From the NCBI GenBank assembly GCA_947632635.1, contig CANRQA010000005.1, forward strand, positions 1 through 46,040: a stretch of 46,040 bases of DNA. The letters are read 5' to 3'. A program made the position numbers and the translations under genes. This DNA comes from an uncultured Clostridia bacterium. GTDB lineage: Bacteria; Bacillota; Clostridia; TANB77; CAG-465. Under the pieces are notes generated by a model. That model did no database searches. It had not been told where the DNA came from and was given only the letters and a program-made list of their open reading frames with translations. Shown piece after piece: positions 1,214-42,685 of this stretch (position 1 is its first letter; the number at the start of each line of letters is the position of its first letter).

Positions 1214-1307
1214 ACTCAATCACAAATATATTATACTATATCTTTAAGTAAATGTCTGTATCATAAATATTTCATAAATTAGCTTATTACTTAATTTTTA
1301 TATGTAG

Positions 1308-3614: not shown

Positions 3615-5507
3615 TCACTTTTTGTTTTGACTTAAATATATAAGTAAAACTGATATATCAGCTGGTGAAACACCAGATATTCTGGAAGCCTGTCCAACAG
3701 ATAAAGGCTTTTGTTTATTTAACTTTTGTCTTGCCTCTAAACTTAAACCTTTAATATTTTCATAATCTATTTCCGCAGACAATTTTTTCTCTTCTAATTT
3801 TTTAAACTCCTCTATTTGCTCTAATTGTAGTTTAATATATCCCTCATATTTAATAGCAATCTCTACCTCTTCTATAACAGAATCAGGTAAAACAGGTCTT
3901 TCTTCATCTATTTCTTTTAAAGAAATATAACTTAACTCACTTCTTTTAATTAAATCAGATAATTTTACACCTGTTTCAAGTTCAGAACTATTCAAGGATT
4001 TAAGTAGATTATTAACTTTAGTAGACGGCTTAATTCTTGTATTTTCAAGACGAGTAATCTCATCTTCTATCATTTTTTTCTTTTGCAAAAATCTTTCATA
4101 TCTTTCTTTTGAAATAAGGCCAATATTATATCCTTTTTCAGTAAGTCTTAAATCAGCGTTATCTTGTCTTAATGTAAGTCTATACTCAGAACGAGATGTC
4201 ATCATTCTATATGGTTCATTTGTTCCTTTTGTAACCAAATCATCAATAAGGACGCCAATATATGCCTCTGACCTATCTAATATAAATGGCTCTAAATTAT
4301 CTATTTTACGAGCCGCATTAATACCTGCCATTATTCCCTGTGCTGCTGCTTCTTCATATCCAGAACTTCCATTAACTTGACCCGCAAAAAATAATCCGTC
4401 AATTCCTTTATATTCTAAACTTAATTTTAAGTTTGTAGAATCAATACAATCATATTCAATTGCATACGCAGGTCGCATCATTTTAGCATTTTCAAGACCT
4501 TTAATAGACCTATACATTTCGATTTGTACTTCTTCAGGAAGAGATGAAGACATACCTTGAATATACATTTCAGATGTACTCTCACCAAGTGGCTCGATAA
4601 ATAATTGATGTCTTTCTTTATCATTAAACCTTACAACTTTATCTTCAATTGAAGGGCAATACCTTGGTCCTATTCCATGAATTCTACCACTATAAATAGG
4701 TGACCTATCAAGATTATTCATAATAATTTCATGTGTTTTTTTATTAGTATAAGTTAAATAACAATCAATTTGTTTTTTGCTTATAATTTCCTCATTTCCC
4801 TCATTTTCAAAAGAAAATGGTACAATTTTTTCATCTCCATGTTGTACTTCCATTTCATCAAGGTTCATATTATTTATGTTAATTCTTGCAGGCGTACCTG
4901 TTTTAAATCTGCGAAGTTCTACGCCTATATCAAGTAAACTTTGAGATAAATCATTAGCTGGAAATACACCATCTGGTCCACTTTCATATGATACTTCTCC
5001 AATAATAACTTTACCCTTTAAATAAGTTCCAGTAGCAACTACAATAGATTTAGCATATACAGTCGCCCCTATTTTTGTTTTAACGCCTACAACATGATTA
5101 TTTTCAATTAATATTTTAACAATCTCACCTTGATATATATCCAAGTTTTCTTGATTTTCAAGAGTTTGCTTCATTTTTATATGATACATTCTTCTATCGG
5201 ATTGAACTCTTAATGAATGTACAGCCGGACCTTTTGACATATTTAACATTTTAGATTGTATAAAAGTGCTATCAGCATTTTTTGCCATTTGTCCACCTAA
5301 AGCATCTATTTCACGAACTAAATGCCCTTTTGAAGTTCCACCAATACTTGGATTACATGGCATATTTGCAAGAGTATCTAAATTTATAACAAAAACCGCA
5401 GTCTTTTTTCCAAGTCTTGCTGCTGCAAGTGCTGCTTCACATCCAGCATGTCCTGCACCTATAACTACGACATCATAATCTCCTAAAGAATATTCATTTT
5501 TTTCCAT
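3615..5507 (-). CDS. mnmG: tRNA modification enzyme MnmG (GidA)
   Basis: FAD-binding partner of MnmE in making carboxymethylaminomethyl-uridine at the wobble position of certain tRNAs. The Rossmann FAD motif [17 protein letters not shown] is at the N-terminus; the GidA signatures [11 protein letters not shown] and [16 protein letters not shown] are present. From the chosen start the protein is 630 residues, normal length. I chose the ATG at 5507 because it follows a near-ideal ribosome site (GGAGGTGC), although the frame stays open to 5534. It lies 11 bp after the mnmE stop and 9 bp before rsmG, so the three are one operon. Confidence 0.97.
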
Positions 5508-5518
5508 ATTGCACCTCC

Positions 5519-6895
5519 CTACTTTCCTAAACAAAATTTTTCAAATATTTTATTAACTACGTCAATATTAACATCGCTACCTATTATCTCACCAAGTGAT
5601 TTAGTAGCATTTTTTATATATATAGAAACAATATCAATAGGCTGTCCATTATTTACCTCTGTTCTTGCCTGTTCTAAATACTCGACTGCCTTTTTTAATA
5701 AATCTTTATGTCTTGCATTTGTAATAACAAGCTCATGTGAATAATCAAAATTTGATTTACTGAATATATCATCAATAGCTTTTTTTAGATTTTCTATTCC
5801 TTCATTGTTTATAACTGAAAGTGAAATTACATTATCAAACTGATATTTGTTTAATTCGTTCAAAATGGTATCAAAAATCGATTTTTGAGTCTTGTCTATC
5901 TTATTTATCGCTACAATTACTTTTAAGCCTTTATTTTTGATTTTAGAAAGTAATTTTAATTCATCATCAGTTATTCCCTCTTCACCATTTAACAAAAACA
6001 AAACAAGGTCAACTTCATCTAATTTTTTTAAACTTTTCTCTACCCCAATTTTTTCTACTAAATTTTCTGTATCTCTTATACCTGCTGTATCGTAAATATT
6101 TAATACCAAACTACCAATATTTATAGTTTCTTCAACAATATCACGAGTTGTTCCTGCAATATCTGTAACTATTGCTTTATCGCTTTTTGATAAATTATTA
6201 AGTAATGAAGATTTACCAACATTTGGTCTACCTATAATTGCAACATTTACCCCATCTTTAATATATTTACCTTGTTCATAAGTATCTAAAATTTGCTTTA
6301 TTTCAGTAACTTTTTTATCAATTAGTGAAATAACATTATCATTTTCAACTTCTTCATAATCATATTCTGGATAATCAACACTAACTTCAATATGTGCTAA
6401 AAGTTCAACAAGTTCTTCTCTTAAACTTGCTATTTTTTTAGAAATATTACCCTCTAATTGATTTGTCGCAATTTGAGTTTGTAATTTATTCTTTGCATTT
6501 ATTAGGTTTATAACTGCCTCTGCTTGAGATAAATCCATTTTTCCATTTAAAAAAGCCCTTTTAGAAAATTCACCAGGAAGAGCTAAACGTGCTCCATTTT
6601 CTAATACTATTTCTAGAATTTGGCGTGTAATCTCTATACCACCATGACAATTTATTTCACAAACATCTTCACCAGTAAATGACTTTGGAGCTTTAAAATA
6701 TGATACAAGTACCCTATCAATAGCAGTATTATTATCATAAATTTTACCATAAATAATAGTATTAGGTTTTAACTCTGCTTTTGAGATAAAAATTTTATTT
6801 ATTATATTTAAACTATCTTTTCCACTAATACGAATTATACTTATACCGCTATTTTGCAAAGCTGTACCAATTGCAGCAATAGTATCTGTTGACAT
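5519..6895 (-). CDS. mnmE: tRNA modification GTPase MnmE (TrmE)
   Basis: Partner of MnmG in wobble-uridine modification; binds tetrahydrofolate and potassium-dependent GTP. The G domain sits in the middle: G1 [10 protein letters not shown]2 DIAGTTRD, G3 DTAG, G4 NKID. The C-terminus ends in FCLGK, matching the conserved C-(I/L)-G-K motif that carries the catalytic Cys. The start ATG at 6895 is preferred over the ATG at 6901 because AAAGGG lies only about 4 nt before the latter but about 10 nt before the former; the protein is then 458 residues. It is the first gene of the mnmE-mnmG-rsmG operon, and a terminator of the upstream unit lies at 6921-6939. Confidence 0.97.
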
Positions 6896-6920
6896 AAACA
6901 TTTTCCCTTTCCTATATAAA

Positions 6921-6939
6921 AGTCAGCTAAATGCTGACT
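6921..6939 (-). terminator. Terminator of the rpmH-to-jag unit
   Basis: AGTCAGC and GCTGACT form a perfect 7-bp stem with a 5-nt loop. There are Ts on both sides, so it can act on the minus strand (TTTTATA) and also looks functional on the plus strand. It separates jag from mnmE. Confidence 0.8.
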
Positions 6940-6959
6940 TTTTTTACTATTTAAAAATA

Positions 6960-7613
6960 TTAATATTTCTTTTTAATAACGACTCTTCTTCTTGGTTCTT
7001 CCCCTATACTTTCAGTTTCTACATCTTTTCTTGTAGCAAGTTCAGTATGAATTATAAGACGCTCATATGCAGACATTGGCTCAAGTTTAATTGGTTTTCT
7101 AAAACGAATAACATTATCAGCCATCTTATTTGCAAGTCTTTTTAATTTTTCTTCTTTTTGCTTTTTATAATCATTAATTTCTACAAAAACTTTTGCATAT
7201 TCTTCATCTTCTCTTTGAAGCATTGCATTTAATAATGATTGTAAAGATTCGATTGTTTTACCTTTATATCCAATAAGATGAGATACTTTATCCCCTACAA
7301 TTTTTAATGTAATTTGATTATTTTCTCTAATTAATTCATATTTAATATCACTTTCACCAGTTATATCAAATATATTTTTTAGTATTTCTTCTATTTTTGA
7401 AATTGTTTTTTCAGCCTGTTCATCACTTATTTTTTTATCAACTGTAAGTCTTACTTTAGCCATTTTAGCAGAAAGAATTCCTAGTACACCACCAGAAGTT
7501 GGTTCTTCTAAAACTTCTACAATTACATCATCTCTTGAAACTTTTAATTCTTCTAGTCCTTTTCTTATTGCTTCTTCTACTGTCTTTCCTATTTGCTCTG
7601 TTATTTTTTTCAT
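6960..7613 (-). CDS. jag: RNA-binding protein Jag/KhpB (EloR)
   Basis: 217 residues in the usual Jag order: an N-terminal Jag domain (about 1-50, VEEAIRKGLEELKV... SGGVLGILSAK), a KH domain with LIGYKGKTIESLQSLLN (about 122-138), and an R3H domain with ERLIIHTELATRKDVETES near the C-terminus. In other Firmicutes it binds RNA and works with KhpA in cell elongation. Start ATG at 7613 follows AAAGGAGGGAG and overlaps the yidC stop codon (ATGA), which implies translational coupling to the membrane insertase gene, a conserved arrangement. Confidence 0.95.
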   Translation of the reverse strand: MKKITEQIGKTVEEAIRKGLEELKVSRDDVIVEVLEEPTSGGVLGILSAKMAKVRLTVDKKISDEQAEKTISKIEEILKNIFDITGESDIKYELIRENNQITLKIVGDKVSHLIGYKGKTIESLQSLLNAMLQREDEEYAKVFVEINDYKKQKEEKLKRLANKMADNVIRFRKPIKLEPMSAYERLIIHTELATRKDVETESIGEEPRRRVVIKKKY

Positions 7614-8458
7614 TTTATACTCCCTCCTTTATTTAGAGTTAAAACTTCTTCCTTTTTATTTTTATTTTTAGTAACAATTGAAATAATTAACTGTTGTATA
7701 ATTTGAATAATATTTCCAAATAACCAGTAAATTCCAAGTGCTAGTGGCATTGTATATGAAATAAATGCTGACAAAATAGGCATTGTAAAATTCATAGACT
7801 TCTGCATTTCTTGTTGTTCATCAGTCATATTTGAAGTTTTTTGCGTAATTTTTATTTGAATTATTGAAAATATTGCTGCAAGTATTGGTATAGCAAGTGA
7901 TATTGGATGAGATTTTTTATTCTCGTCTTGTGACCTAAAGTTTGCAGGTATATCACCTAAATTAATACCAAACTTAACATCCATATCAATTAATCCTTTT
8001 TCATTTGCAATTACAAGCTCATTCATTTGCATTTCTCTCTCAGTTACTTCTTCTTTATTTAATATTTCTTGTGTATAAGCTCTAATTTGCTCTGTTGGTG
8101 TTTGGACAATATATGTAAGAGGTTGTCTAACAATTGCAAACATAGCAAGAATAATTGGAATTTGTATAAGAAGTGGTAAACATCCGCCCATTGGATTAAT
8201 TTTATTTTCTGCATAAAGTTTTGATAACTCCTCTGCCTGCTTTTGTTTATCATTTTTATATTTTTCTCTAATTTTTGCATCAAGTGGTGCAATTTTTTGC
8301 ATTTTCTCTGTTGATTTTAATTGTATTATTGTAAGTGGTAATAATATTAATTTTGTTAATAAAGTAAATAAAAGTATTGAGATAAAATAATTATTATTAA
8401 CTAACTTATATATTAATCTAATTATAAAGCCAAAAAAACTCGCTATAGCATTGTACAT
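7610..8458 (-). CDS. yidC: Membrane protein insertase YidC/OxaI (SpoIIIJ type)
   Basis: 282 residues with five hydrophobic segments typical of Gram-positive YidC: an N-terminal segment (about 5-35), then ILLFTLLTKLILLPL, PLLIQIPIILAMFAIV, ISLAIPILAAIFSI and LGIYWLFGNIIQII. The conserved MGGCLPLLIQIPI stretch is present, and the hairpin between the first and second core segments carries the usual charged QKIAPLDAKIREKYKNDKQK type loop. It inserts and folds membrane proteins, alone or with SecYEG; the SpoIIIJ paralogue is needed for sporulation in B. subtilis. No lipobox Cys is seen at the N-terminus. Start ATG at 8458 follows AAGGGGAATG. Last codon overlaps jag. Confidence 0.95.
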   Translation of the reverse strand: MYNAIASFFGFIIRLIYKLVNNNYFISILLFTLLTKLILLPLTIIQLKSTEKMQKIAPLDAKIREKYKNDKQKQAEELSKLYAENKINPMGGCLPLLIQIPIILAMFAIVRQPLTYIVQTPTEQIRAYTQEILNKEEVTEREMQMNELVIANEKGLIDMDVKFGINLGDIPANFRSQDENKKSHPISLAIPILAAIFSIIQIKITQKTSNMTDEQQEMQKSMNFTMPILSAFISYTMPLALGIYWLFGNIIQIIQQLIISIVTKNKNKKEEVLTLNKGGSIK

Positions 8459-8472
8459 CTACATTCCCCTTT

Positions 8473-8730
8473 TCATTTTAAATAATCTACTCCACCATGT
8501 GAAAATGGATTACATTTTAATATCCTTATGCCACCTAAAATATTCCCTTTTATTATACCATACTTGTCAACTGCTTGTTTAGTATATTCAGAACAAGTAG
8601 GATAAAATATACATCTTCTTCCAAAACTTTTTGATATATTTTTTTGATAAAAATTAATAAGTAATATTTCAAGTTTTGCTGGTATTCTTATTATAAACTT
8701 TAATATTTTAAATAATTTATTTTTCTTCAT
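8473..8730 (-). CDS. yidD: Membrane protein insertion efficiency factor YidD
   Basis: 85 residues, typical size. The YidD signature is clear: FYQKNISKSFGRRC, then IFYPTCSEYTKQAVDKYG, then ILKCNPFSHGGVD. The N-terminus is a hydrophobic and basic amphipathic segment expected to lie on the inner face of the membrane. It helps YidC-dependent insertion. It overlaps rnpA by 14 bp and is 14 bp from yidC, which fits one transcript rpmH-rnpA-yidD-yidC-jag. Confidence 0.95.
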   Translation of the reverse strand: MKKNKLFKILKFIIRIPAKLEILLINFYQKNISKSFGRRCIFYPTCSEYTKQAVDKYGIIKGNILGGIRILKCNPFSHGGVDYLK

Positions 8731-9064
8731 ATAAACCTAAATCCTTAAAACATTTACAAATTTCTGTTTTTACAATTTCAAAATTTACATCATTTATAGT
8801 TGTATTTTTTTTGTATATTACAACTATAAAATATCCTTTTTTTAGTTTTTCTTCTTCAATTTTATATACTTCTCTTGCCCATCTTTTTAATTTATTTCTA
8901 TGAACACTTATTCCATTTTTTTTAGATACGCAAATTCCAAAAAAACTTTTATTTTTCTTGTTTTTTAATACATGAACAGTTATATTTTTTGAATTTGCAT
9001 ACTCTCCTATTTTTAATATTTTTTTAAAAACCCTGTTCTTTTTTATTCTATATGTAAATTTCAT
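8717..9064 (-). CDS. rnpA: Ribonuclease P protein component
   Basis: 115 residues. The protein subunit of RNase P binds the 5' leader of pre-tRNA and supports the RNA catalyst. It shows the basic family signature in the form VHRNKLKRWAREVYK (about residues 56-70; the usual motif is RNRxKRxxRE), preceded by FGICVSKKNG. Start ATG at 9064 follows AGGTGAG. It is downstream of rpmH and overlaps yidD. Confidence 0.95.
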   Translation of the reverse strand: MKFTYRIKKNRVFKKILKIGEYANSKNITVHVLKNKKNKSFFGICVSKKNGISVHRNKLKRWAREVYKIEEEKLKKGYFIVVIYKKNTTINDVNFEIVKTEICKCFKDLGLYEEK

Positions 9065-9083
9065 TATCTCACCTATTATACGG

Positions 9084-9116
9084 TAAAAGTGAGTATGAAA
9101 AACATACCCACTTTTA
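9084..9116 (-). other. Strong hairpin between rpmH and rnpA
   Basis: TAAAAGTGAGTATG (9084-9097) pairs with CATACCCACTTTTA (9103-9116), 14 bp with one G-U-compatible mismatch and a 5-nt loop. There is no U-tract after it on the minus strand, so it is more likely a processing or partial-termination element that sets the rpmH:rnpA ratio than a full terminator. Confidence 0.5.
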
Positions 9117-9129
9117 AATAAGCAGTAAC

Positions 9130-9264
9130 CTAAGCACTTATTACTTTTCTTCCTTTAGCTCTTCTGCGTTTTAAAACATCACGACCAGAAGCTGTGCTCA
9201 TTCTTTTTCTAAATCCATGAACTTTTTGTGTTTGTATTTTTTTTGGTTGATATGTTCTTTTCAA
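9130..9264 (-). CDS. rpmH: Ribosomal protein bL34
   Basis: A 44-codon gene too short for simple ORF listing. It reads [18 protein letters not shown], then [20 protein letters not shown], then RKVISA, an unmistakable L34. It starts with TTG at 9264 behind a strong ribosome site (AGGGGGTG, six bases upstream). L34 is the first gene of the leftward operon and borders oriC, its standard place in bacteria. Confidence 0.97.
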
Positions 9265-9464
9265 TTGCTACACCCCCTAATGTAATTCTAATTATTTTCT
9301 TATTATTCATTAGATAATTTTTCATCTAATTTTAACTTCATTTTAAATCAAAGTAAATTAATTATATCGTATTTTTTTTAATTTGTCAATAAAAAAATAC
9401 AAATTTTATTAAAGATATTTTTATTATCCTTTTACATAAAAATATTTAATTAGAAATATTAAAA

Positions 9465-9720
9465 TTTTATCCACATATACCTGTGGATAACTTTCTTTAA
9501 ACACATATGTTCTTGTCAAAAATAAAATTTTATAAAAAATTATAAAAGTATTGAATTTTTGCGAAGTTCATGATATATTTAATCTAGCAAATTTTATATT
9601 AATTTTCACACGTTTCACACAAATCCACAGCATTTATGTAAAATTAATTTTTAGTATATACTATTTTGTCGAAAAGTTATCAACACCTGTGGATAACTCT
9701 GTGGATAACTTTGTGAAAAC
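9465..9720. other. oriC, left DnaA-box cluster upstream of dnaA
   Basis: Perfect DnaA boxes: TTATCCACA at 9467-9475 (+) and its reverse complement at 9482-9490, 9688-9696 and 9700-9708; the variant TTATCAACA lies at 9677-9685. A weaker TTTTCACAA-like box is at about 9711-9719. The first two face each other across 6 bp. The 480-bp gap 9265-9744 contains no convincing gene; a short ORF covering 9551-9814 is chance. This cluster probably also serves dnaA autoregulation, since the last boxes sit 40-70 bp from the dnaA start. Confidence 0.88.
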
Positions 9721-9744
9721 ATGTGTTTTTAGAAGGGTGGTTTT

Positions 9745-11136
9745 ATGGATAACAACTTTATGGAAACATGGTCGCAAGCCTTGGAAATACTGCAAGAAGA
9801 GATTTCACCAGTAGGATATAAAACATACGTTGAAGTAATGGTTCCAAGAATTGTGGATAACAATACTTTATGCTTCTTATCACCATCAAATTATCATATT
9901 GATATTTGCAAAAAGAGATATTTAGATTTAATTCAAAATACTCTAACATTTCTTACAAAAAAATCATATAATATCACTTTTGAAGCCAAAGAAATCATAC
10001 CTGATTCAAATGATAACAAAGAAGAAAGTGTTGAAATCGAACCAGAAATTGAAAAAACCACAAAAGATAAAACTGATACAGAAAATGTAGAAGTAAAACG
10101 AACAAATGAAGTGGCAGGGCTAAATCCAAGATACACATTTGAAAATTTTATAATAGGTTCAAATAACAGATTTGCCCATGCAGCAGCAGTAGCTGTATTT
10201 GAAAATCCAGCCAAAAAATATAATCCTTTATTTATTTATGGAGGAGTAGGACTTGGAAAAACGCATCTAATGCAAGCAATTGGAAATGCTATGTATCAAG
10301 CAAATCCAAATATTAGAATTATATATTGTACTGGTGAATTATTTGCAAATGAAGTAATATCAGCTATTATGAATAATCAAAATGAATCATTTAGAAAAAA
10401 ATACAGAAATATTGATTTATTATTAATTGATGATATACAATTTCTAGCAGGTAAAGATAAATGTCAAGAAGAGTTCTTTCACACATTTAATACACTTTTT
10501 GAAAGTGGAAAACAAATTGTATTAACATCTGAAAAACCACCAAAAGAAATAGCTCTTTTAGAAGACAGATTAAAAACTAGATTTGAGATGGGGCTTTCTG
10601 TTGATATGCAAACACCAGATTATGAAACACGTCTTGCAATATTAAGGAAAAAAGCAGAGCAGGAGAGGTATATAATTAATGATGATATACTTGTAAAAAT
10701 TGCAACAAGGGTAAAATCTAATATAAGAGAATTAGAGGGTGTATTTAATAAATTAGTTGCATATACATCATTTACTAATAATGACTTAACTGATGAAGTA
10801 GTAGAAAATACAATAGAATCTATACTTGTAAAAAATACAAATGTTATAACAAGTAAGTTAATAATGCAAATAGTTTGTAAATTCTTTAATATAAAAGTTA
10901 GTGATATTGTTAGTGATAAAAGGTCAAATAGTGTAGCTTTTCCAAGACAAATAGCAATGTATCTTTGTAGAGAAATAGCTAATATGTCATTTCCAGCAAT
11001 AGGTAAAGATTTTGGAGGAAGAGACCATTCAACTGTATTACACGCATATTCCAAAATTAAAGATGAATATGATAATAATCCCGAGACTAGAGATTTAATA
11101 GAAGATATAAAGAAAACCTTATCTATTGCGGATTAG
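9745..11136 (+). CDS. dnaA: Chromosomal replication initiator DnaA
   Basis: 463 residues in the four-domain order: domain I (about 1-80), an acidic flexible linker (about 85-125), the AAA+ domain with Walker A GGVGLGKT (166-173) and Walker B LLLIDDIQF, and domain IV with the DNA-binding signature GGRDHSTVLHAY near the C-terminus. DnaA-ATP binds TTATCCACA boxes and melts oriC. The ATG at 9745 follows AGAAGGGTGG. DnaA boxes lie on both sides of the gene, which fits autoregulation. Confidence 0.98.
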   Translation: MDNNFMETWSQALEILQEEISPVGYKTYVEVMVPRIVDNNTLCFLSPSNYHIDICKKRYLDLIQNTLTFLTKKSYNITFEAKEIIPDSNDNKEESVEIEPEIEKTTKDKTDTENVEVKRTNEVAGLNPRYTFENFIIGSNNRFAHAAAVAVFENPAKKYNPLFIYGGVGLGKTHLMQAIGNAMYQANPNIRIIYCTGELFANEVISAIMNNQNESFRKKYRNIDLLLIDDIQFLAGKDKCQEEFFHTFNTLFESGKQIVLTSEKPPKEIALLEDRLKTRFEMGLSVDMQTPDYETRLAILRKKAEQERYIINDDILVKIATRVKSNIRELEGVFNKLVAYTSFTNNDLTDEVVENTIESILVKNTNVITSKLIMQIVCKFFNIKVSDIVSDKRSNSVAFPRQIAMYLCREIANMSFPAIGKDFGGRDHSTVLHAYSKIKDEYDNNPETRDLIEDIKKTLSIAD

Positions 11137-11192
11137 AAGAAAATATTACATATATATTACAAAAATATTTCGTAATCGTAACATATAAAAAT

Positions 11193-11479
11193 TTATCCAC
11201 AAGTAACTGTGGAAAACCATGTGGATAAAATGTGTATAACTTATAATTTTAAAAATTATCCACACCAAACAAATATTCTGTGGAAAAATAGAACAAGTTA
11301 TCCACAGACTTATCCACATAAGTTTTTCTAGTATTAGATAGGGGTAGAGGTACTTATCCACATAATCCACAATACCTACTACTATGACTACTAAATATAA
11401 ATATATAATAATATAATATATGTTTATGTATGCAAAATAAATTTTTAACAAACAACTTTTCTGTGGAAACTGTGGAAAA
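11193..11479. other. oriC, right DnaA-box cluster between dnaA and dnaN
   Basis: Perfect TTATCCACA boxes on the plus strand at 11193-11201, 11256-11264, 11298-11306, 11310-11318 and 11354-11362, and on the minus strand at 11220-11228. Near-consensus boxes: 11208-11216, 11231-11239, 11279-11287, 11363-11371, 11462-11470 and 11471-11479. Density is far above chance even in this AT-rich DNA. The 424-bp gap 11137-11560 holds no gene. A 9-bp inverted repeat (TATAACTTT at 11482, AAAGTTATA at 11514) could fold in the dnaN leader. Confidence 0.93.
11376..11425 (+). other. DnaA-trio array and AT-rich unwinding element
   Basis: Directly after the last two boxes (11354-11371) the plus strand reads CTA CTA CTA TGA CTA CTA (11376-11393), i.e. 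3'-GAT repeats on the other strand, followed by about 30 bp of pure A/T (from about 11394). This matches the DnaA-trio plus unwinding-element layout described for B. subtilis and other bacteria. It places initial strand opening between dnaA and dnaN. Confidence 0.75.
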
Positions 11480-11560
11480 CTTATAACTTTTATTATATAA
11501 ATTATTAAAATATAAAGTTATATTTATCATAAAGTAAACAATATAAAAGGAGATAATAAA

Positions 11561-12679
11561 ATGAATATAAAATGTAGTTTAAGAGAATTAATAAATGGAT
11601 TAAATACTGTATCTATAGCTTCTGCTAATAAAACAACAATGCCAATACTTGAGGGAGTTTTAATAGAAGCATATAATAATAAAGTAAAATTAACAACTAA
11701 TAATTTAGAACTTGGTTGTGAGTATGAATTTGAATGTAAAATAGAAACAGAAGGAAAAACTGTTGTAGATATTAGAATGTTAAATGAAATAGTTAGAAAA
11801 ATTGAAGATAACGAAGTTGAATTAGTTTTAGAAGATAATTTATTTATACTAAAATCAGTAAATGGTATATTTAAACTTGCTACTATGAATGCAAACGAAT
11901 ATCCAAAACTACCAGTGTTTAATGTTGAAAATAGTATAGAGCTTGAACAAGCTACTTTTAAAGATATGTTAAAAAAGTCTATATTCTGTGTAAGTAATGA
12001 TGAAAATAGACCTATATATAATGGAGCATTAGTAAAGGTAGAGGGGAATATATTAACTATTGTAGCTGTTGATGGATTTAGATTAGCACTAAGAAAACAT
12101 TTAAATAAGACTAATATAAATGATTTTAAAGCAATTATTCCAGGTAAAGTATTAAGTGAATTACTAAAAATATTATCAGATATTGACGGTGATAAAATAA
12201 AAATAGGTGTTAATAAAAATCAGGCTTTATTTGAAATAGGACAAAGTGTAATTATTTCTAGAATTATCGAAGGTGAATTTTTAAATTATAATGGAATAAT
12301 TCCTGAAAATTATGAAACAAAAATAAAATTAAAAACTAAAAATTTACTTGATTCTTTTGAAAGAGTTGCTTTATTTGCAAAAGAAAATAAAGAAAAAGAT
12401 AAAAAATCACCTGTTAAAATGAAAATTGAAATTGATGGAGTAGTGCTTAGTTGTGTAAGTGATACTGGAGATGCAAAAGAATCAATTACAGCTGTTGTAG
12501 AGGGTAAAAATTTAGAAATAGGATTTAATCCTAGATATGTTATTGAAGCATTAAGAGTAATAGAAGATGAGGAAATAAGTATTGAATTTACTTCAAGTAT
12601 TTCTCCAGTCCTTATAAAACCAACTGTAGGAAATGGATATATTTACGTTGTTTTACCAATTAAACTAAAACAAGAATAA
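11561..12679 (+). CDS. dnaN: DNA polymerase III sliding clamp (beta)
   Basis: 372 residues, normal for the clamp; three repeated clamp folds are expected. Family features include the N-terminal LRELINGLNTVSIASANKTTMPILEGVLIEA-type start and the C-terminal FNPRYVIEALR ... GNGYIYVVLPIKL. It forms a dimeric ring that tethers polymerase III. Start ATG at 11561 follows AAAAGGAGA. A bidirectional terminator follows at 12705-12737, which separates dnaN from recF. Confidence 0.97.
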   Translation: MNIKCSLRELINGLNTVSIASANKTTMPILEGVLIEAYNNKVKLTTNNLELGCEYEFECKIETEGKTVVDIRMLNEIVRKIEDNEVELVLEDNLFILKSVNGIFKLATMNANEYPKLPVFNVENSIELEQATFKDMLKKSIFCVSNDENRPIYNGALVKVEGNILTIVAVDGFRLALRKHLNKTNINDFKAIIPGKVLSELLKILSDIDGDKIKIGVNKNQALFEIGQSVIISRIIEGEFLNYNGIIPENYETKIKLKTKNLLDSFERVALFAKENKEKDKKSPVKMKIEIDGVVLSCVSDTGDAKESITAVVEGKNLEIGFNPRYVIEALRVIEDEEISIEFTSSISPVLIKPTVGNGYIYVVLPIKLKQE

Positions 12680-12704
12680 TTTTATTAATAAGTATTAAAT
12701 AAAA

Positions 12705-12737
12705 AAACAAGAAATTGAAATTCTCAATTTCTTGTTT
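12705..12737. terminator. Bidirectional terminator between dnaN and the 44-codon gene
   Basis: AAACAAGAAATTGA (12705-12718) and TCAATTTCTTGTTT (12724-12737) form a perfect 14-bp stem with a 5-nt loop, with A-run before and T-run after, so it works for dnaN on plus and for the convergent small gene on minus. Confidence 0.9.
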
Positions 12738-12745
12738 TCAAGTTT

Positions 12746-12880
12746 TCATACAAGCCACCGAATTATCATATAAATGGCAAAAATAATAAGAGCAGGTATG
12801 CCTACAAGTTTAAATATAAGTATTAGTCCATAAACAATAGGCATAAACAATAATTCCAAAAAAGCACCTAAAAGCCCCAT
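12746..12880 (-). CDS. 44-residue membrane peptide, antisense between dnaN and recF
   Basis: Starts with ATG at 12880 after a perfect ribosome site (AAGGAGGC) and ends with TGA at 12746, only 9 bp from a matched terminator. The translation begins MGLLGAFLELLFMPIVYG and ends FAIYMIIRWLV; it is almost wholly hydrophobic, with one or two short membrane segments. It runs against the direction of its neighbours. In many Firmicutes this slot holds the S4-domain gene yaaA, which is absent here. I do not recognise the peptide; it could be a small integral membrane protein or a type-I-toxin-like peptide. Confidence 0.65.
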   Translation of the reverse strand: MGLLGAFLELLFMPIVYGLILIFKLVGIPALIIFAIYMIIRWLV

Positions 12881-12958
12881 TTGAAAGCCTCCTTAAAAGA
12901 AAACACTTAACATAATTATAACATGGATTAAAAAATATGTCAAGAAGAGAGGAATAAC

Positions 12959-14035
12959 ATGTATTTAAAAAGTATAAATCTTGAAAATTTTAGAAATTAT
13001 AGTAATCAATATATAGAATTTATAAATGGTATAAATTTATTTGTTGGAAATAATGCACAAGGCAAGACAAATATAATTGAAGCAATTTATGTATGTTCAT
13101 TTGGAAAGTCGTATAGAACTACTAAGGATATTGAATTATTAAAATTTAATGAAGAATTTTTAAGAATAAAGTTAGATTATAATAAAAAAGATTATGATAA
13201 AGAAATAGAAGTTTTTATAAATAATTTGAATAAAAAAATAATAAAAGAAAATGGAGTTAAAATTTCAAAAATAGCGGACCATGTTGAAGAGTTACCAATT
13301 GTAATTTTTTCTCCAGATAGTTTAGATATTGTAAAAGGTGCACCAGGAAAAAGAAGAATGTTTATTGATATGATTTGTTGTCAATTATCTAAATCATATT
13401 TACTTACACATCAAGAATATATGAAGTGCTTAAAATTAAAAAATAATATGTTAAAAAAAGATGAGATTGATAAAGACTATATTTTAGTTTTACATGAAAA
13501 AATGAGTGATTGTATAGAAAAAATAGTTAAATTTAGAACTGAAGTTATAGAAAAATTATTGATAAAGGCAAAAGAAATTCATAAGAAATTAACAGATTCA
13601 AAAGAAGAAATAAATGTTGAGTATGTTACTGATTTTATGAATTTAGATAAACAAGAAATAAAAAAATATTTAGATGAACATTTATATATTGATATATTAA
13701 GGAAATCCTCTATAAAAGGGATACAAAGAGATGATATAAATATATATATAAATAATTTAGAAGTAGGAAAGTATGGCTCACAAGGGCAAAATAGGACAGC
13801 ATTACTTACTTTAAAACTTGCTGATTTTGAAGTATTAAAAGATGAAAAAGAAGAAGTACCTATATTACTTTTAGATGATATAATGTCTGAACTTGATAGT
13901 AATAGAATTAATTTTCTTTTAGATTATATTGAGGGTTACCAGAGTGTTATAACTACAACAGATGCTTCATTTGTAAAAAATGTAGAAAATATAAAAATTT
14001 CAAAAGTTTTAAATGGAACACTTAAAAAATTATAA
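12959..14035 (+). CDS. recF: DNA repair ATPase RecF
   Basis: 358 residues, SMC-like ABC ATPase that helps load RecA at single-strand gaps. Walker A is VGNNAQGKTNIIEA (about 27-40), the signature is GSQGQNRTALLTLKLA, and Walker B plus D-loop is PILLLDDIMSELD. The N-terminus LKSINLENFRNY is typical. Start ATG at 12959 follows GAGAGGA. It lies downstream of dnaN but after a terminator, so it has its own promoter. Its last about 16 codons have a degraded second copy just upstream of gyrB (15087-15134). Confidence 0.97.
   Translation: MYLKSINLENFRNYSNQYIEFINGINLFVGNNAQGKTNIIEAIYVCSFGKSYRTTKDIELLKFNEEFLRIKLDYNKKDYDKEIEVFINNLNKKIIKENGVKISKIADHVEELPIVIFSPDSLDIVKGAPGKRRMFIDMICCQLSKSYLLTHQEYMKCLKLKNNMLKKDEIDKDYILVLHEKMSDCIEKIVKFRTEVIEKLLIKAKEIHKKLTDSKEEINVEYVTDFMNLDKQEIKKYLDEHLYIDILRKSSIKGIQRDDINIYINNLEVGKYGSQGQNRTALLTLKLADFEVLKDEKEEVPILLLDDIMSELDSNRINFLLDYIEGYQSVITTTDASFVKNVENIKISKVLNGTLKKL
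13987..14013 (+). repeat. Direct repeat, copy 1: recF 3' end
   Basis: 27 bases, beginning AAATATAAAAATTTC, are identical to 15087-15113. The similarity continues, less exactly, through the recF stop (14014-14038 against 15114-15138). This copy is the functional end of recF. Confidence 0.8.
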
Positions 14036-37026: not shown

Positions 37027-37830
37027 ATGAAAATCTACCTAGACTATATTTTTTTAGAAAATCTAGTTTTGAATTTGATACTTTTGTATCAAGTAAGTAT
37101 TTTTACAAAATCGCACTTAAAAAAAACAAATTATATTATAGGAACTGTTTTTATAGCTATTTATACAACAATAGTACATATAGTAAATTTAAGCATTTTA
37201 AATAATATAGGTATAAAAATAGCAGTAATATTTATTGGAATATATATAACATTTGCACCAAAGATAATACCAGAATATATCAAAAAGATAATATATTATT
37301 TTTTATTATCTTTTTTGTATGTAGGAATAATAATATCAATTTCACTGCTTTTTGGAATTAATTTAGAAAATATAATATCCAAGATAATTATATATATAAT
37401 ATCTGGAGTAATTTCATATATTTTCAATAAAAATATGTGGAAAATGTGGAAAAGTAACATAAAAAAATCAGATTTAACATATAAAATAAATATAAAGGGA
37501 CAAGAAATTATTGCATTTGTTGATACGGGCAATAATGTAAAAGATTTACTAACTAATTTAAACGTAATTTTTGTAGATGAAAAGTATAAAGAAAAAATAA
37601 TTGATGGAAATAAAGAAGTAATAATAGGATTTAACACAATAGCTGAAAGTGGTAATTTACAAGGCTATATTGTAAAAGATATAGAAGTATATAAAAATAA
37701 AGAAAAAGTTGGAACAATAAAGAAAATAATTATGTGTTTTGTAAAGAATAGCTTGGATAAAAAAGAATATAGTGCACTTATAGGATATGACACATACATT
37801 GAAAATTTAAAGGGGGTACGACTTTGTTAG
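37027..37830 (+). CDS. spoIIGA: Pro-sigma-E processing protease SpoIIGA
   Basis: About 268 residues. The N-terminal half has five hydrophobic segments; the C-terminal half is an aspartic-protease-like domain with the catalytic motif [10 protein letters not shown] (Asp about 167) and IGYDTYI near the end, as in SpoIIGA. It cleaves the pro-peptide of sigma-E after septation on a signal from the forespore (SpoIIR). Start ATG at 37027 follows AGGTGA; the in-frame GTG at 37018 is inside that site. Its stop overlaps the sigE start by 7 bp, a conserved arrangement. Confidence 0.94.
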
Positions 37831-38534
37831 AAAAGAAAAAAATAAAAAATATATATTTAAAATTACTTAAATTATTACATTTAGATGAAAATTCACTTTT
37901 TTATATAGCAGGCTCTGAAAAATTACCTGCACCATTAGAGCCAGAAGAAGAACAAGAACTTTTAGAAAAATTAATGAAAAAAGATGTTAATGCAAAAAAT
38001 ACTTTAATAGAAAGAAATTTAAGACTTGTCGTATATATAGCAAAAAAGTTTGAAAATTCAGGTGTAAATATAGAAGACTTAATATCAATAGGAACAATAG
38101 GATTAATGAAAGCAATAAATAGTTATAATTTAGATAAAAATATAAAACTTGCAACTTATGCATCAAGATGTATAGAAAACGAAATATTAATGTTCTTAAG
38201 AAAAAACAATAGAATAAAAACAGAAATATCTATTGATGAACCCATAAATACAGATAGCGAGGGAAATGATATGTCACTTGCTGATATATTAGGAACAGAC
38301 AATGATAGTATTTTTAAATCAATTGAAGAAAATGATAACAAAAAAATTCTTGTAAATGCTATTTCAAAATTAAATAAAAGAGAAAAGACAATAATGCAAC
38401 TTAGATACGGATTTGATGGATATGAGGAACTTACACAAAAAGAAGTAGCAGATAAACTTGGAATATCCCAATCATATATTTCACGAATAGAAAAAAAGGT
38501 AATAAATAATTTAAAAAAAGATTTTACGGCATGA
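37824..38534 (+). CDS. sigE: RNA polymerase sporulation sigma factor SigE
   Basis: 236 residues. An N-terminal pro-sequence with a basic amphipathic start ([16 protein letters not shown]) and the conserved [13 protein letters not shown] precedes sigma region 2 ([30 protein letters not shown]), then region 4 with the helix-turn-helix ([22 protein letters not shown]). It directs mother-cell transcription once processed. The start is TTG at 37824 behind AAGGGGGT, overlapping spoIIGA. A strong terminator follows, so in this genome it is not co-transcribed with sigG. Confidence 0.96.
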
Positions 38535-38544
38535 AATATAACAA

Positions 38545-38579
38545 AAAAATCGAATGGTAATTTTACTATTCGATTTTTT
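38545..38579 (+). terminator. sigE terminator
   Basis: AAAATCGAATGGTAA and TTACTATTCGATTTT pair with one mismatch and a tight loop, followed by TTTTTTC. Confidence 0.9.
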
Positions 38580-38602
38580 CTATATAAAAAAAGAAAAAAA
38601 TG

Positions 38603-38611
38603 TGGTATAAT
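38603..38611 (+). promoter_or_regulatory. Extended -10 promoter of the TIR-NB-ARC gene
   Basis: TGGTATAAT is an extended -10 (TG, one base, TATAAT at 38606-38611); no good -35 is seen. AAGGAGAT lies before the start codon. Confidence 0.55.
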
Positions 38612-38634
38612 ATATAAAAAAAGGAGATAAAGGT

Positions 38635-40338
38635 ATGGATATAAAGCCTATAGATGTATTTATTAGTCATCATACAAAAAGTTGTTTAAAAATAACTGAA
38701 GCTATATGTAATTCCTTAGAAAGTCTTGGAATTAGAGTATGGTATGCACCAAGAGATACACAAGATGAGTATGCAAGAAAAATAGTTGAAGTTATTAATG
38801 AATGTAAAGTATTTATTTTAGTATTAAATCATGAATCTTCTGAATCTTATGACGTATTAAATGAAATAAATTGTGTAGCAGAAAGGCTTAGAAACAAACA
38901 AGCAGTACATGTTATTCCTTTTCAAATATCAAATGAAGATATAAGTGATAATGCAAAGTATTATATAGGTAGGATGCATTGGCTAGATGCAGTTACCCCA
39001 CCTATAGAAAAAAGGATAAAAGAATTAACTGATAGAGTAGAAGCTATTTTAAAAAATAATCAAAATATTATACCAGAATATAAAGATAAAAATGCTATAA
39101 AAATAAATAGTACATATGTATCTGAAAATGTTCAATTTATTGGAAGAAAAAAAGAAATAGAAGAAGTAAAAAATGCTTTAGATAGATATAAAAAAGTATT
39201 TTTAAAGGGAATTGGTGGAATAGGAAAAAGCGAAATAGCAAAAAAATATATTAGTATGTATAAAGAAAATTATGACATTATTATTTTTGCTAGATATACT
39301 ATAAATTTAGAACAATTAATTATTAGTGAAAAAAATTTTAATATTAGTAATTTTTATAGGATACAAAATGATAATGGTATAATCGAAAATGATAGAGAGT
39401 TTTTTTTAAGGAAATTAGATTTAATAAAAGAATTTGCAAAAACTAAAAAAATGCTAATTGTAATAGATAATTTTGATACAGAAGATGATGAAAACTTAGA
39501 AGAAATATTAAATGGTGAATATGATGTTATTTTTACAACAAGATATAGTCATGAATATTTAGGAGTTCCAACAATTGAAATAAATGCTATGGATAATACT
39601 CATGATTTATATAATTTATTTGTACAAAATTATAACATACATCAAAATGTAAATGAAAAAGAAGAAATAATAGATATAATTAGATTATTACAAGGTCATA
39701 CATTAGCAATAGAGTTGGTATCAAAGTATATGAAAAGCTCTAGGAAAAGACCTAAAGATATGTATAATATAATAAAAGAAAATGGTATAAATCCAAATTT
39801 ATCAGGTCAAATCAATCATTTCTTTGAGAAAAATACTATGTATCAATATATAAAAATGTTATTTGATATATCAAAAATTAATGAAGAAGAAAAATATGTT
39901 TTGATGAATTTATCATTATTTACAATTACAGGAATAGAATTTGGTTTATTTATAGAACTTTGTAATTTGCAAGATGGATTTGTAATAGATGACCTTATTA
40001 AAAAAAGTTGGATATCATATAGTATTAATGAAGATACAATACATCTTCACCCATTAATTATTGATGTTATAAAAAACGAATGTAAACCAGATTTAAAAGT
40101 TTGTAATATTTTATTTACTAATTTAACAAAAATAGATTCATGGAAAATATCTCAACATGAAAGAATAAAATATGAGGGAATTATATTAAACATATATCAT
40201 AATTTTACTTATATAACACAAGAAAATGTAAATAAATATATAGAGGTTGCAAAATTTTTAAGAGATTTGGGGTATTATAAACAATCAGAAGAATTATTGT
40301 TAAAAATTTTAGATGTACAAATTAAAGAAAAACGGTGA
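38635..40338 (+). CDS. TIR-NB-ARC STAND protein, 5' part of a frameshifted NLR-like gene
   Basis: 567 residues. TIR domain (about 5-137): IDVFISHHTKS, then RVWYAPRDTQ, and Glu77 in YDVLNEINC at the place of the NADase Glu. NB-ARC domain (about 165-480): FIGRKKEIEEV, Walker A GIGGIGKS (192-199), Walker B LIVIDNFD (about 274-281), FTTRYS sensor, GHTLAIELVSKYM (GLPL-like), and a winged-helix segment ending HLHPLIIDVI (MHD-like). The start of a TPR (FLRDLGYYKQSEELLLKI) is cut by the frame end at 40338; it continues in the ORF at 40313. By analogy to bacterial STAND/NLR defences, a sensor TPR triggers oligomerisation and NAD depletion by TIR. It sits between sigE and sigG. Confidence 0.85.
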   Translation: MDIKPIDVFISHHTKSCLKITEAICNSLESLGIRVWYAPRDTQDEYARKIVEVINECKVFILVLNHESSESYDVLNEINCVAERLRNKQAVHVIPFQISNEDISDNAKYYIGRMHWLDAVTPPIEKRIKELTDRVEAILKNNQNIIPEYKDKNAIKINSTYVSENVQFIGRKKEIEEVKNALDRYKKVFLKGIGGIGKSEIAKKYISMYKENYDIIIFARYTINLEQLIISEKNFNISNFYRIQNDNGIIENDREFFLRKLDLIKEFAKTKKMLIVIDNFDTEDDENLEEILNGEYDVIFTTRYSHEYLGVPTIEINAMDNTHDLYNLFVQNYNIHQNVNEKEEIIDIIRLLQGHTLAIELVSKYMKSSRKRPKDMYNIIKENGINPNLSGQINHFFEKNTMYQYIKMLFDISKINEEEKYVLMNLSLFTITGIEFGLFIELCNLQDGFVIDDLIKKSWISYSINEDTIHLHPLIIDVIKNECKPDLKVCNILFTNLTKIDSWKISQHERIKYEGIILNIYHNFTYITQENVNKYIEVAKFLRDLGYYKQSEELLLKILDVQIKEKR

Positions 40339-41032
40339 AATTTCTTTAGAGGTAGCATTGATATATGATTTACTAAGATTTGTAAATAACAAATCATATA
40401 ATGTAAAAAAAGCAAATGAATATAACGAAAAATCTATTTCAATATTAAGAAATTTAAAAAATGAAGAATATACACTAGCAGATACTTTAAAATCAAGAGC
40501 TTTTTCATATTTAAAGGAAAGAAAAAAAGAAGAAGCAAAAGTTTTATTAGAAGAAGTTGTAAGTATTTATGATAGAATATTACCAGATAATCATTATAAA
40601 ATTGGAAATTTAAATATAGCACTTGCAAGGCTATATTATCAATTAGAAGATTATGAAAAGTCATATGAGTGTGCCAAAAAGGCGGTTAAATTATTATCGC
40701 TAAAATATGATAGACAAAGTACAGACGTTGCAACAGCTTTAATGGCTCTTGGACTTGCAAACTGTAAATTAGGAAACTTTGAAGAGGGTATTAATAATTT
40801 AAAAGAAACTTTAAAAACAAGAATAGAAAAATTCCATGATAACGATTTTGCTATATTAGATGCATACGAATCACTAGCCGATGGATATATAGATGCAAAA
40901 GATTATAAAGAGGCTAAAAAATATTTAATGATTGTAAAGGATGAACTTAGTAAAAAAGTATCTGTTGAAGATAAATGGTATAAAAGAATAGAAGAAAAGC
41001 TAAAATGCGTTAATGAAAATTTGAATAAATAA
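40313..41032 (+). CDS. TPR sensor, 3' part of the TIR-NB-ARC gene in +1 frame
   Basis: 239 residues with four or more TPRs of the kinesin-light-chain style (ADTLKSRAFSYLKERKKEEA, IALARLYYQLEDYEKSYECA, ALMALGLANCKLGNFEEG, AYESLADGYIDAKDYKEAKK). The start ATG at 40313 has no ribosome site and overlaps the end of the upstream frame. Removing one A from the five-A run at 40328-40332 fuses the two frames into a protein of about 800 residues with a continuous TPR series, so the two are best read as one gene split by a homopolymer frameshift. Whether the parts act as two proteins is unknown. Confidence 0.78.
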   Translation: MYKLKKNGEISLEVALIYDLLRFVNNKSYNVKKANEYNEKSISILRNLKNEEYTLADTLKSRAFSYLKERKKEEAKVLLEEVVSIYDRILPDNHYKIGNLNIALARLYYQLEDYEKSYECAKKAVKLLSLKYDRQSTDVATALMALGLANCKLGNFEEGINNLKETLKTRIEKFHDNDFAILDAYESLADGYIDAKDYKEAKKYLMIVKDELSKKVSVEDKWYKRIEEKLKCVNENLNK

Positions 41033-41083
41033 AATACTACTTAGGTAATAAAAAGTTATTGTACAGGTTTTTGTTAAAATAAT

Positions 41084-41112
41084 TTGACAAATTTTTAATC
41101 TTTAAGTATAAT
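41084..41112 (+). promoter_or_regulatory. Promoter for the 41151 gene
   Basis: Perfect TTGACA (41084-41089), 17-bp spacer, perfect TATAAT (41107-41112). Confidence 0.85.
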
Positions 41113-41150
41113 TTTTATATAAGATTTTTAATTTGTTGAGGTTGATATAA

Positions 41151-41678
41151 ATGGATACAAAAATTTTTATATTATTAATAATAGGACTTGCTATAGCAGC
41201 ATTAGTTACAAGAATAATAAATATAACTTTAGCTAGGCAAATGAAATGTAAAGAGATATATGAAGAACTAAAAAAAGATTTTTTATATACCAAAGCTAAT
41301 ACTTATTTATTAATAATTAGTACAAGTAGTTTAATTATATTTATTTTATATTCAATAATGGAATATAGAATAATAGCTTTAGGTATATTAACTATGCTTA
41401 TTGGTGTTTTTAGAGGTATAGCATATATAGACACAGGAGTTGGAACTGCACCAAATCAATCAATGGAAAGTTTTATATTACTACGTATTATTATATTTTT
41501 TGTACTTTTAGTAATAACATATGTTTCTATATGTATATTATTAATAAGACAAATAAATGCTAATACAAAAATATATAAATTATTAAAAAATAATATTGAG
41601 GAATTAAAAACTAAATATGCAAAACGCATTCAAAATAATGATATTAATAACATCAGTGATTGGAATGATGGTATATAA
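41151..41678 (+). CDS. Membrane protein, four segments, unknown function
   Basis: 175 residues: hydrophobic segments at about 4-24, 48-67, 72-92 and 107-130, then a charged cytosolic tail with a Lys-rich coil. I do not recognise it. Start ATG at 41151 follows GAGGTTGAT. It has a perfect promoter and its own terminator, so it is not strictly tied to the TIR gene, although the two lie together between sigE and sigG. It may be a partner effector or an unrelated passenger. Confidence 0.78.
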   Translation: MDTKIFILLIIGLAIAALVTRIINITLARQMKCKEIYEELKKDFLYTKANTYLLIISTSSLIIFILYSIMEYRIIALGILTMLIGVFRGIAYIDTGVGTAPNQSMESFILLRIIIFFVLLVITYVSICILLIRQINANTKIYKLLKNNIEELKTKYAKRIQNNDINNISDWNDGI

Positions 41679-41693
41679 AATATAACTTTATTA

Positions 41694-41728
41694 AAAACTA
41701 GGAATTAAAAAATAATTCTTAGTTTTTT
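41694..41728 (+). terminator. Terminator after the 41151 gene
   Basis: AAAACTAGGAATTA (41694-41707) and TAATTCTTAGTTTT (41713-41726) pair with one mismatch, followed by Ts. Confidence 0.85.
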
Positions 41729-41902
41729 CTTTTGTAAGCACAATTCTACAAATTTCTAAAATGCAAAAAGATATAATGGATGTGTTAATATGCACGTTAT
41801 ATCATTGTAAAAAAAGCACTAAAAAAAACAAGTAATGTCGAAGATGTATAAATAAGAATTCATATGTAAAGTATATTAACAAAATAAAAGGAGGCTATAC
41901 AT

Positions 41903-42685
41903 ATGAATGTAAAAGTTGAGATACAAGGATTAGATACATCTAAATTACCAAAATTATCTGCAAAAGAACAAATGGAAATGTTAAAACAAATAAAGGAAGG
42001 AAAAACAGAATTAAAAAATGATTTTATAGAAGCAAATTTAAGACTTGTTTTAAGTCTTGTAAAAAGATTTAATAATCGAGGTGAAAATATAAACGATATA
42101 TTCCAGGTAGGAGTTGTAGGATTAATAAAAGCAATAGATAATTTTGATATTGAACAACCAGTACAATTTTCTACATACGCTGTACCAATGATAATTGGAG
42201 AAATAAAAAGATATTTAAGAGATAATAGTGCATTTAGAATAACAAGGTCATTACGAGATTTAGCATATTTAATTTCTCAAGAAAGAGAAAAATATATTAG
42301 AGAAAAAAATGAAGAACCAACAGTAGATGAAATATGTAATTTAACAAAAGCATCAAAAGAAGATGTTATACTTGCTATAGATAGTCAAATAGTACCAATG
42401 TCAATATATGATAGCGTATATAATGACGGAGGAGACCAAATATATTTACTTGACCAATTAAAAAATGAAAAAGAAGAATCAGAGGAATTAATAAATAAAA
42501 TAGCAATAGAACAAATCTTAAAAAAACTATCTGATAAAGAAAGATATGTAATTGAAAGAAGATATTTTAAAAATAAAACACAATCCGAACTTGCTGAAGA
42601 ATTAGGAGTTTCACAAGCACAAATTTCAAGAATAGAAAAAACAGCTTTACAAAGAATAAAAAAACGAGTCGAACGTCAAAAATAG
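41903..42685 (+). CDS. sigG: RNA polymerase sporulation sigma factor SigG
   Basis: 260 residues. The conserved start VKVEIQGLDTSKLPKLSA is typical of sigma-G. Region 2 has RLVLSLVKRFNNRGENINDIFQVG and region 4 the helix-turn-helix TQSELAEELGVSQAQISRIEK. It drives late forespore transcription. Start ATG at 41903 follows AAAGGAGG. About 170 bp of non-coding leader precede it, including TTCTACAAA at about 41753, a 0A-box-like sequence; no clear sigma-F promoter was assigned. In other spore formers it is adjacent to sigE; here 3.3 kb intervene. Confidence 0.96.
   Translation: MNVKVEIQGLDTSKLPKLSAKEQMEMLKQIKEGKTELKNDFIEANLRLVLSLVKRFNNRGENINDIFQVGVVGLIKAIDNFDIEQPVQFSTYAVPMIIGEIKRYLRDNSAFRITRSLRDLAYLISQEREKYIREKNEEPTVDEICNLTKASKEDVILAIDSQIVPMSIYDSVYNDGGDQIYLLDQLKNEKEESEELINKIAIEQILKKLSDKERYVIERRYFKNKTQSELAEELGVSQAQISRIEKTALQRIKKRVERQK

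Follow-up and report, generated by a model that had tools for sequence, protein, structure and literature searches.

In the plant TIR-NLRs RPP1 and ROQ1, a TIR domain, an NB-ARC domain and a repeat sensor follow one another in this order, and the output runs through EDS1 and helper NLRs. The gene described here shares that order, but it is bacterial, its sensor is built of TPR instead of LRR, and its proposed output is a RyR/RCK membrane protein. Thoeris resembles the present case in combining a TIR enzyme (ThsB) with a separate effector (ThsA), which here too would read an ADPR-type signal, and the gene gives weak PADLOC ThsB matches; it differs in that here the TIR is fused to an NB-ARC-TPR sensor and the partner is RCK/RyR rather than SIR2-SLOG, macro-TM or caspase. 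None of these known ThsA effectors was recognised in the neighbourhoods read, nor was any found in the selected neighbours scanned with Pfam and PADLOC. The bacterial STAND defence proteins Avs and bNACHT and the archaeal PH0952 (6mfv), the latter being the best structural match of the model of an intact relative at locus L122, likewise consist of a STAND NTPase with a C-terminal repeat sensor, but Avs and bNACHT use a NACHT or Avs-type ATPase where this gene has NB-ARC, and here a TIR is N-terminal. PADLOC returned no Avs match at E<=1 for the two parts of the gene, and the AVAST5 structures 9nc9 and 9jap ranked 48-49 by fold (Foldseek, L122 model). DUF4062 (Swarozyc) proteins directly deplete NAD+ (PMC13174449); the gene falls outside this group, scoring 18.2 bits against DUF4062, under the cut-off of 24.7 and beaten by TIR_2, and DUF4062 occurs as a separate gene adjoining the relative at L124.

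On the partner side, a 2026 preprint shows 2'/3'cADPR to be bound and cleaved by RyDEP, a phage protein with a RyR domain (PMC13232231), and other phage RyDEP homologs act as sponges of the same molecule (PMC13232231). The proteins considered below share the RyR domain (PF02026) with RyDEP; unlike that soluble phage counter-defence enzyme, they are chromosomal and lie beside, or are fused to, a channel-like membrane protein or Abi_2. The RCK-gated channels GsuK, Slo1/BK, MthK, TrkHA and CASTOR/DMI1 have transmembrane helices followed by two Rossmann/RCK-like domains, an arrangement that the partner appears to share in its model, but the partner additionally carries a RyR module, its TM-scores are low and its channel activity is predicted.

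The gene lies in a stretch of 46,040 nucleotides from an uncultured Clostridia bacterium (contig CANRQA010000005.1), here called the window, which belongs to the genome designated G000. The preliminary description had placed it at 38635-41032, between sigE and sigG, and these coordinates are correct: a TIR and NB-ARC frame is followed there by a TPR frame. The features of the region are as follows.

37824 to 38534, forward strand: sigE, the left neighbour (NCBIfam SigE, 9.9e-105, 349 bits vs a cut-off of 339).
38544 to 38579, forward strand: terminator hairpin 3' of sigE (RNA fold of -17.2 kcal/mol for 38535-38585, z=-8.7).
38580 to 41740, forward strand: insert, that is, sequence without counterpart in close congeners (ends approximate; blastn against the congener gaps).
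38603 to 38611, forward strand: putative extended -10 (TGGTATAAT) ahead of the gene, TATAAT-type by sequence, with no recognisable -35.
38622 to 38626, forward strand: putative ribosome-binding site AGGAG, by sequence.
38635 to 40338, forward strand: 567-aa TIR and NB-ARC portion of the STAND/NLR-like gene (Pfam TIR_2 and NB-ARC), 62% identical to the intact L122 protein.
38640 to 39030, forward strand: TIR domain, about residues 3-130, with the catalytic Glu77 within VLNEIN.
39145 to 39790, forward strand: NB-ARC nucleotide-binding domain, with P-loop GIGGIGKS and Walker B LIVIDNFD.
40313 to 41032, forward strand: 239-aa TPR portion of that gene, read in the +1 frame (Pfam TPR_12), with 59% identity to L122 in its C-terminal part.
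41151 to 41678, forward strand: orphan 175-aa membrane protein inside the same insert, preceded by a perfect TTGACA-17-TATAAT at 41084-41112.
41903 to 42685, forward strand: sigG, the right neighbour (NCBIfam SigG as best match, 2.6e-103, at 345 bits under the model cut-off of 372).

The TIR, NB-ARC and TPR parts read from the sequence at the outset are all there, as is each of the motifs FISHHTKS, Glu77, GIGGIGKS, LIVIDNFD and HPLI. Search with Pfam profiles gave TIR_2 in 38635-40335 (E=1.1e-11, 45.7 bits vs a curated cut-off of 28), NB-ARC in the same interval (E=2.7e-9, 37.1 bits vs a curated cut-off of 23.5) and TPR_12 in 40313-41029 (E=3.5e-20), so that both TIR_2 and NB-ARC stand above their curated thresholds. 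All 25 aligned sequences, the window gene among them, share Glu77, Trp36, Ser11, the P-loop Lys198 and the Walker B Asp278. A structure prediction of the intact L122 protein, with a mean pLDDT of 84.6, adopts an NLR-type fold: Foldseek returned the archaeal STAND protein 6mfv first, then the plant TIR-NLR RPP1 (E=3.7e-11 against its core) and Apaf-1.

The two frames overlap by 26 bases, with the TPR half shifted by one, and the TGA that ends the first frame is in frame owing to the frame break. Given that the two halves are collinear with the intact L122 protein and conserved alike, we conclude that they are one gene with a single frame break near 40330 and that a full-length protein is not encoded in this assembly. 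The wording used earlier of a fused protein and a repaired gene had hinted at this break, while the gene is actually split in the assembly. In the gene as it stands, the C-terminal repeat sensor is absent from the polypeptide that carries the TIR and NB-ARC domains, the TPR lying in the +1 frame; in the intact copy of the same genome (L086) and in relatives both are on one polypeptide. The ATG of the second frame has no obvious ribosome-binding site, judging by sequence. Beyond the break no further stops occur in either half, and since both halves are also conserved alike, the break either arose recently or reflects an assembly error. No break is present in the nearest homologs, at L095, L096, L122 and L124, or in a second copy in the same genome (~790 aa); short or cut copies also occur at some more distant loci (L118 and L126-L129), some of them at contig ends. 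A programmed frameshift was considered and rejected, as none occurs in the closest relatives and the reading frame is at odds with a classical -1 slippery heptamer. The gene is thus a broken member of its family by descent.

One scan of genome contigs revealed 37 homologous loci, nearly all in gut Firmicutes MAGs and one in a Gastranaerophilales MAG. None of the 37 lies in a viral contig; carriage by a phage or plasmid was rejected, with no relative in viral contigs and only partial matches in phage and plasmid records. The usual neighbours of the family are tandem copies and other TIR genes, its neighbourhoods also include DUF4062, Abi_2 and defence-island genes, and its distribution is patchy. 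The earlier assignment to an NLR-like STAND family is supported, and the distribution and surroundings are of the kind expected of anti-phage sensors; the defence role proposed with it is a probable one. The intact second copy (G000:C1, from 86445 onwards) encodes 789 aa with 47% identity and is likely to be the working sensor. It groups with L130 and the gene of the congener G007 (support 0.998), whereas the window copy groups with L124, L096, L122 and L095 (support 1.000). Recent duplication within this genome was rejected, as the copies stem from separate clades; this points to separate acquisitions. At L094 (G056:C19, 131-11223), an NB-ARC-TPR relative without TIR adjoins a serine-recombinase-like gene, with E1/E2-type, metallo-beta-lactamase, RloB-like and AAA defence-like genes, named by eye, on its other side. 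Together, the window gene is best explained as one member of a bacterial family of NLR-like TIR-NB-ARC-TPR sensors that was acquired horizontally and has since suffered a frame break.

The place between sigE and sigG had been presented as a surprise, and the spacing of 68-100 bp in sister genera agrees with this, but within the genus the gap runs from ~100 bp to 4.7 kb and holds unrelated cargo. In one species group it carries a LemA-like pair, cysS, cysE, TPR and unknown genes (named by eye); a ClpP-like gene (Pfam) occupies it in G018, a short unrelated ORF in G013, and nothing in others. The ClpP-like protease gene of G018 lies on the opposite strand (L065:1191-1733), and an apparent remnant of it is found in the same gap of G001 (L078). 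Comparison of the insert interval with the congener gaps by blastn revealed significant similarity only in the block upstream of sigG, from ~41744, which is conserved and retained in the window. Because both length and cargo of the gap vary within the genus, we conclude that the gene is one of several fillings of a variable gap and that its position is incidental. Among 27 congeners a close homolog was found only in G007, at a different locus and beside a second TIR gene; no spore sigma genes lie near the closest relatives in the neighbourhoods read, and the synteny comparison thus shows that the gene is not at this position in all relatives. No RyR or membrane-protein match was obtained at the sigE/sigG loci read with the same profiles. 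Insertion of a mobile element with target duplication was rejected, the flanks sharing only 8-9 base AT-rich matches of which several are equally good.

The strong sigE terminator was confirmed by folding (values above). Of the promoter claimed for the gene, the extended -10 before the ATG stands; no recognisable -35 accompanies it, and a sigma-70 scan lists no site at 38603-38611, so that a promoter of its own is plausible. The orphan 175-aa protein, for which neither a Pfam or NCBIfam family above cut-off nor a homolog in congeners was found, is a possible partner encoded in the insert. Two further observations concern the surroundings. A Spo0A-box-like TGTCGAA at 41836-41842, 65-85 nt before sigG, occurs in the window and in each of the nine close congeners compared (L065, L077-L084) but in only one of 11 genomes from the other species group; direct Spo0A control of sigG may accordingly be confined to one species group. 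At the start of the window (56-1219, reverse strand) lies an ORF that appears transposase-like by eye.

Inspection of the neighbours of the family revealed a recurrent partner. At L097, L098 and L124, a membrane protein of 587-699 aa lies upstream of the sensor, with a TrkA-N-like part in some; these proteins are 37-48% identical between loci, and that of L098 carries a fused C-terminal RyR domain (2.7e-36). At L103, L109, L111, L115 and L152 a shorter TM2-type membrane protein with a weak RyR match adjoins the sensor, so that sensor and partner are directly adjacent at eight loci, the partner being immediately upstream in several, and at L117 a RyR ORF lies ~2.4 kb from the sensor. The window copy has no RyR/RCK neighbour; in this genome and in G007 a RyR ORF of 94-95 aa adjoins an RCK-like membrane protein of 602-606 aa, the pair lying at another place than the sensor (RyR scores of 2.0e-34 at G000:C6 and 3.0e-33 at G007:C2). 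For the G000 ORF, animal ryanodine receptors are matched at 6e-62 and 3nrt, a bacterial structure labelled 'putative ryanodine receptor', at 1e-32. The His-x-x-Trp pair used by RyDEP (H75, W78) has a counterpart by spacing in the G000 and G007 proteins, as read from their sequences. The RyR domain is also fused to Abi_2 at L124, and in G007 Abi_2 adjoins the RyR ORF and the membrane protein. The L124 interval 4460-13798 is a dense putative defence set comprising the Abi_2-RyR fusion, the RCK-like membrane protein, the TIR-NB-ARC-TPR gene, DUF4062 and a protein of 1180 aa that combines TPR with Ig-like domains. At L161 (G172) and L162 (G237), a RyR ORF is followed directly by a protein matching the sensor profile at ~1e-28, and the pairing may extend to these more distant relatives.

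The association was also evident at the level of whole genomes. Of 57 relatives searched with PF02026, just G000 and G007 contain the domain, and these are precisely the two with close sensor homologs. RyR was present in 17 of 31 sensor-bearing genomes vs 23 of 386 without the sensor (Fisher p=1.5e-11, kinship ignored), and across the class 4 of the 5 genomes having a TIR-bearing match contained it (Fisher 8.7e-5, kinship likewise ignored). Nine of the 17 RyR matches are weak and cover part of the profile (E 1e-6 to 1e-9); no RyR match was found in 14 of the 31 sensor-bearing genomes, some of which are small or incomplete MAGs. AbiEii, an unrelated defence family taken as control, showed no bias (12 of 31 sensor genomes vs 127 of 391 others), and general co-enrichment of defence genes was rejected on this ground as the cause of the association. 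TIR-NB-ARC-TPR genes thus repeatedly accompany a RyR/RCK membrane protein, either adjacent or in the same genome.

To describe the partner we used a model of the L098 protein, which is 4 sequences deep with a mean pLDDT of 61.8, its RyR part lying below 50 and being unusable. The better part, which spans residues 1-430, contains four helices of TM length and a pair of Rossmann-like domains. Its closest solved structures in Foldseek are GsuK, Slo1/BK, TrkA, CASTOR/DMI1 and MthK, all of them RCK-gated channels or their gating rings; the match to GsuK reaches 2.7e-7 (Z 10-12 with large rmsd, from a shallow model), and the TM-scores of the RCK matches are low, at 0.15-0.20 of the query. On the basis of the RCK-like part and the transmembrane helices, the partner is modelled like an RCK-type ion-channel protein.

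For the intact family we infer phage sensing, NADase and cyclase chemistry, the identity of the signal, opening of a channel and arrest of the cell, in the following order. The TPR superhelix would sense what is most likely a phage component, upon which NB-ARC would switch and oligomerise in the manner of RPP1 and Apaf-1; the TIR domains, brought into a cluster, would convert NAD+ into a cyclic-ADP-ribose-type signal. This would be read by the RyR domain belonging to a second, membrane-bound protein whose body would be an RCK-type channel; some relatives encode that protein beside the sensor, this genome at a different locus (G000:C6). Once open, the channel would collapse the membrane potential, and the infected cell would stop growing. 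The reading we favour, at a probability of about 55%, is that the window holds a broken NLR-like sensor, placed incidentally, whose intact relatives signal through a cADPR-type molecule to a RyR/RCK channel. The complete immune pathway, from NLR-like TIR-NB-ARC-TPR sensor through a cADPR-type signal to an RCK-type channel gated through RyR, we put at slightly under even odds. Counting against the favoured reading, DUF4062 and other TIR proteins in the sensor neighbourhoods could act without RyR.

Other explanations bear on the gene itself or on its partner. There is an even chance that the copy in the window is no more than a pseudogene, without function in this organism, which is compatible with the function proposed for the family: the frame break, the lack of an obvious ribosome-binding site before the second ATG and the unbroken state of L095, L096, L122, L124 and the second genomic copy speak for it, while halves conserved alike (62% and 59% to L122) with no more stops indicate a break that is recent or an assembly error. 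That the gene is instead a developmental one tied to sporulation is exceedingly improbable. Its position between sigE and sigG is the one point in favour, and nothing supports the link between spore fate and infection that had been raised: 26 of the 27 congeners have no close homolog, the gap carries other genes in congeners, and the sigE terminator and a vegetative TATAAT-type -10 stand between sigE and the gene. A sporulation link was rejected on the variable gap and on the homologs at other loci.

As for the partner, the sensor may be a self-contained abortive-infection NADase that depletes NAD+ without a second messenger, with RyR/RCK as an independent, co-travelling system. We consider this unlikely. 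A TIR whose Glu is invariant fits plain NADase activity, a RyR partner is missing at many loci, and the DUF4062 protein adjoining L124 belongs to a group that depletes NAD+ directly (PMC13174449); however, RyR is enriched with the sensor in a way that AbiEii is not, it adjoins the sensor directly at eight loci, with the partner just upstream in several, and the RyR domain is a known binder of cADPR (PMC13232231). More doubtful still is the possibility that the RyR proteins are a counter-defence or a brake, removing or sponging the TIR signal, rather than effectors. Phage RyR proteins do exactly this (PMC13232231), and the RyR of G000 and G007 is a small separate ORF of 94-95 aa, but the proteins are chromosomal, adjoin an RCK-channel-like membrane protein or, in L098, are fused to one, and in L124 the fusion to Abi_2, an abortive-infection domain, places RyR in effector-like company.

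The sensor adds a member to the NLR-like TIR family. A literature search found no system that joins a TIR-STAND protein to a RyR channel, and going by the literature searched the pairing of sensor and RyR/RCK protein is undescribed, although a 2025 preprint on new TIR systems (Yirmiya et al., doi 10.64898/2025.12.03.692087) may already describe RyR effectors. What ligand RyR domains evolved to detect, and whether ryanodine receptors respond to cADPR directly, are long-standing questions; a bacterial RyR domain that is joined to a channel-like protein and associated across genomes with a TIR enzyme offers a small, testable system for both. If the complete pathway is as proposed, it would provide a bacterial route from an NLR-like receptor through a nucleotide signal to an ion channel, parallel to plant TIR-NLR immunity, and would be a bacterial counterpart of both animal cADPR-ryanodine-receptor signalling and the TIR-NLR-to-channel signalling of plants.
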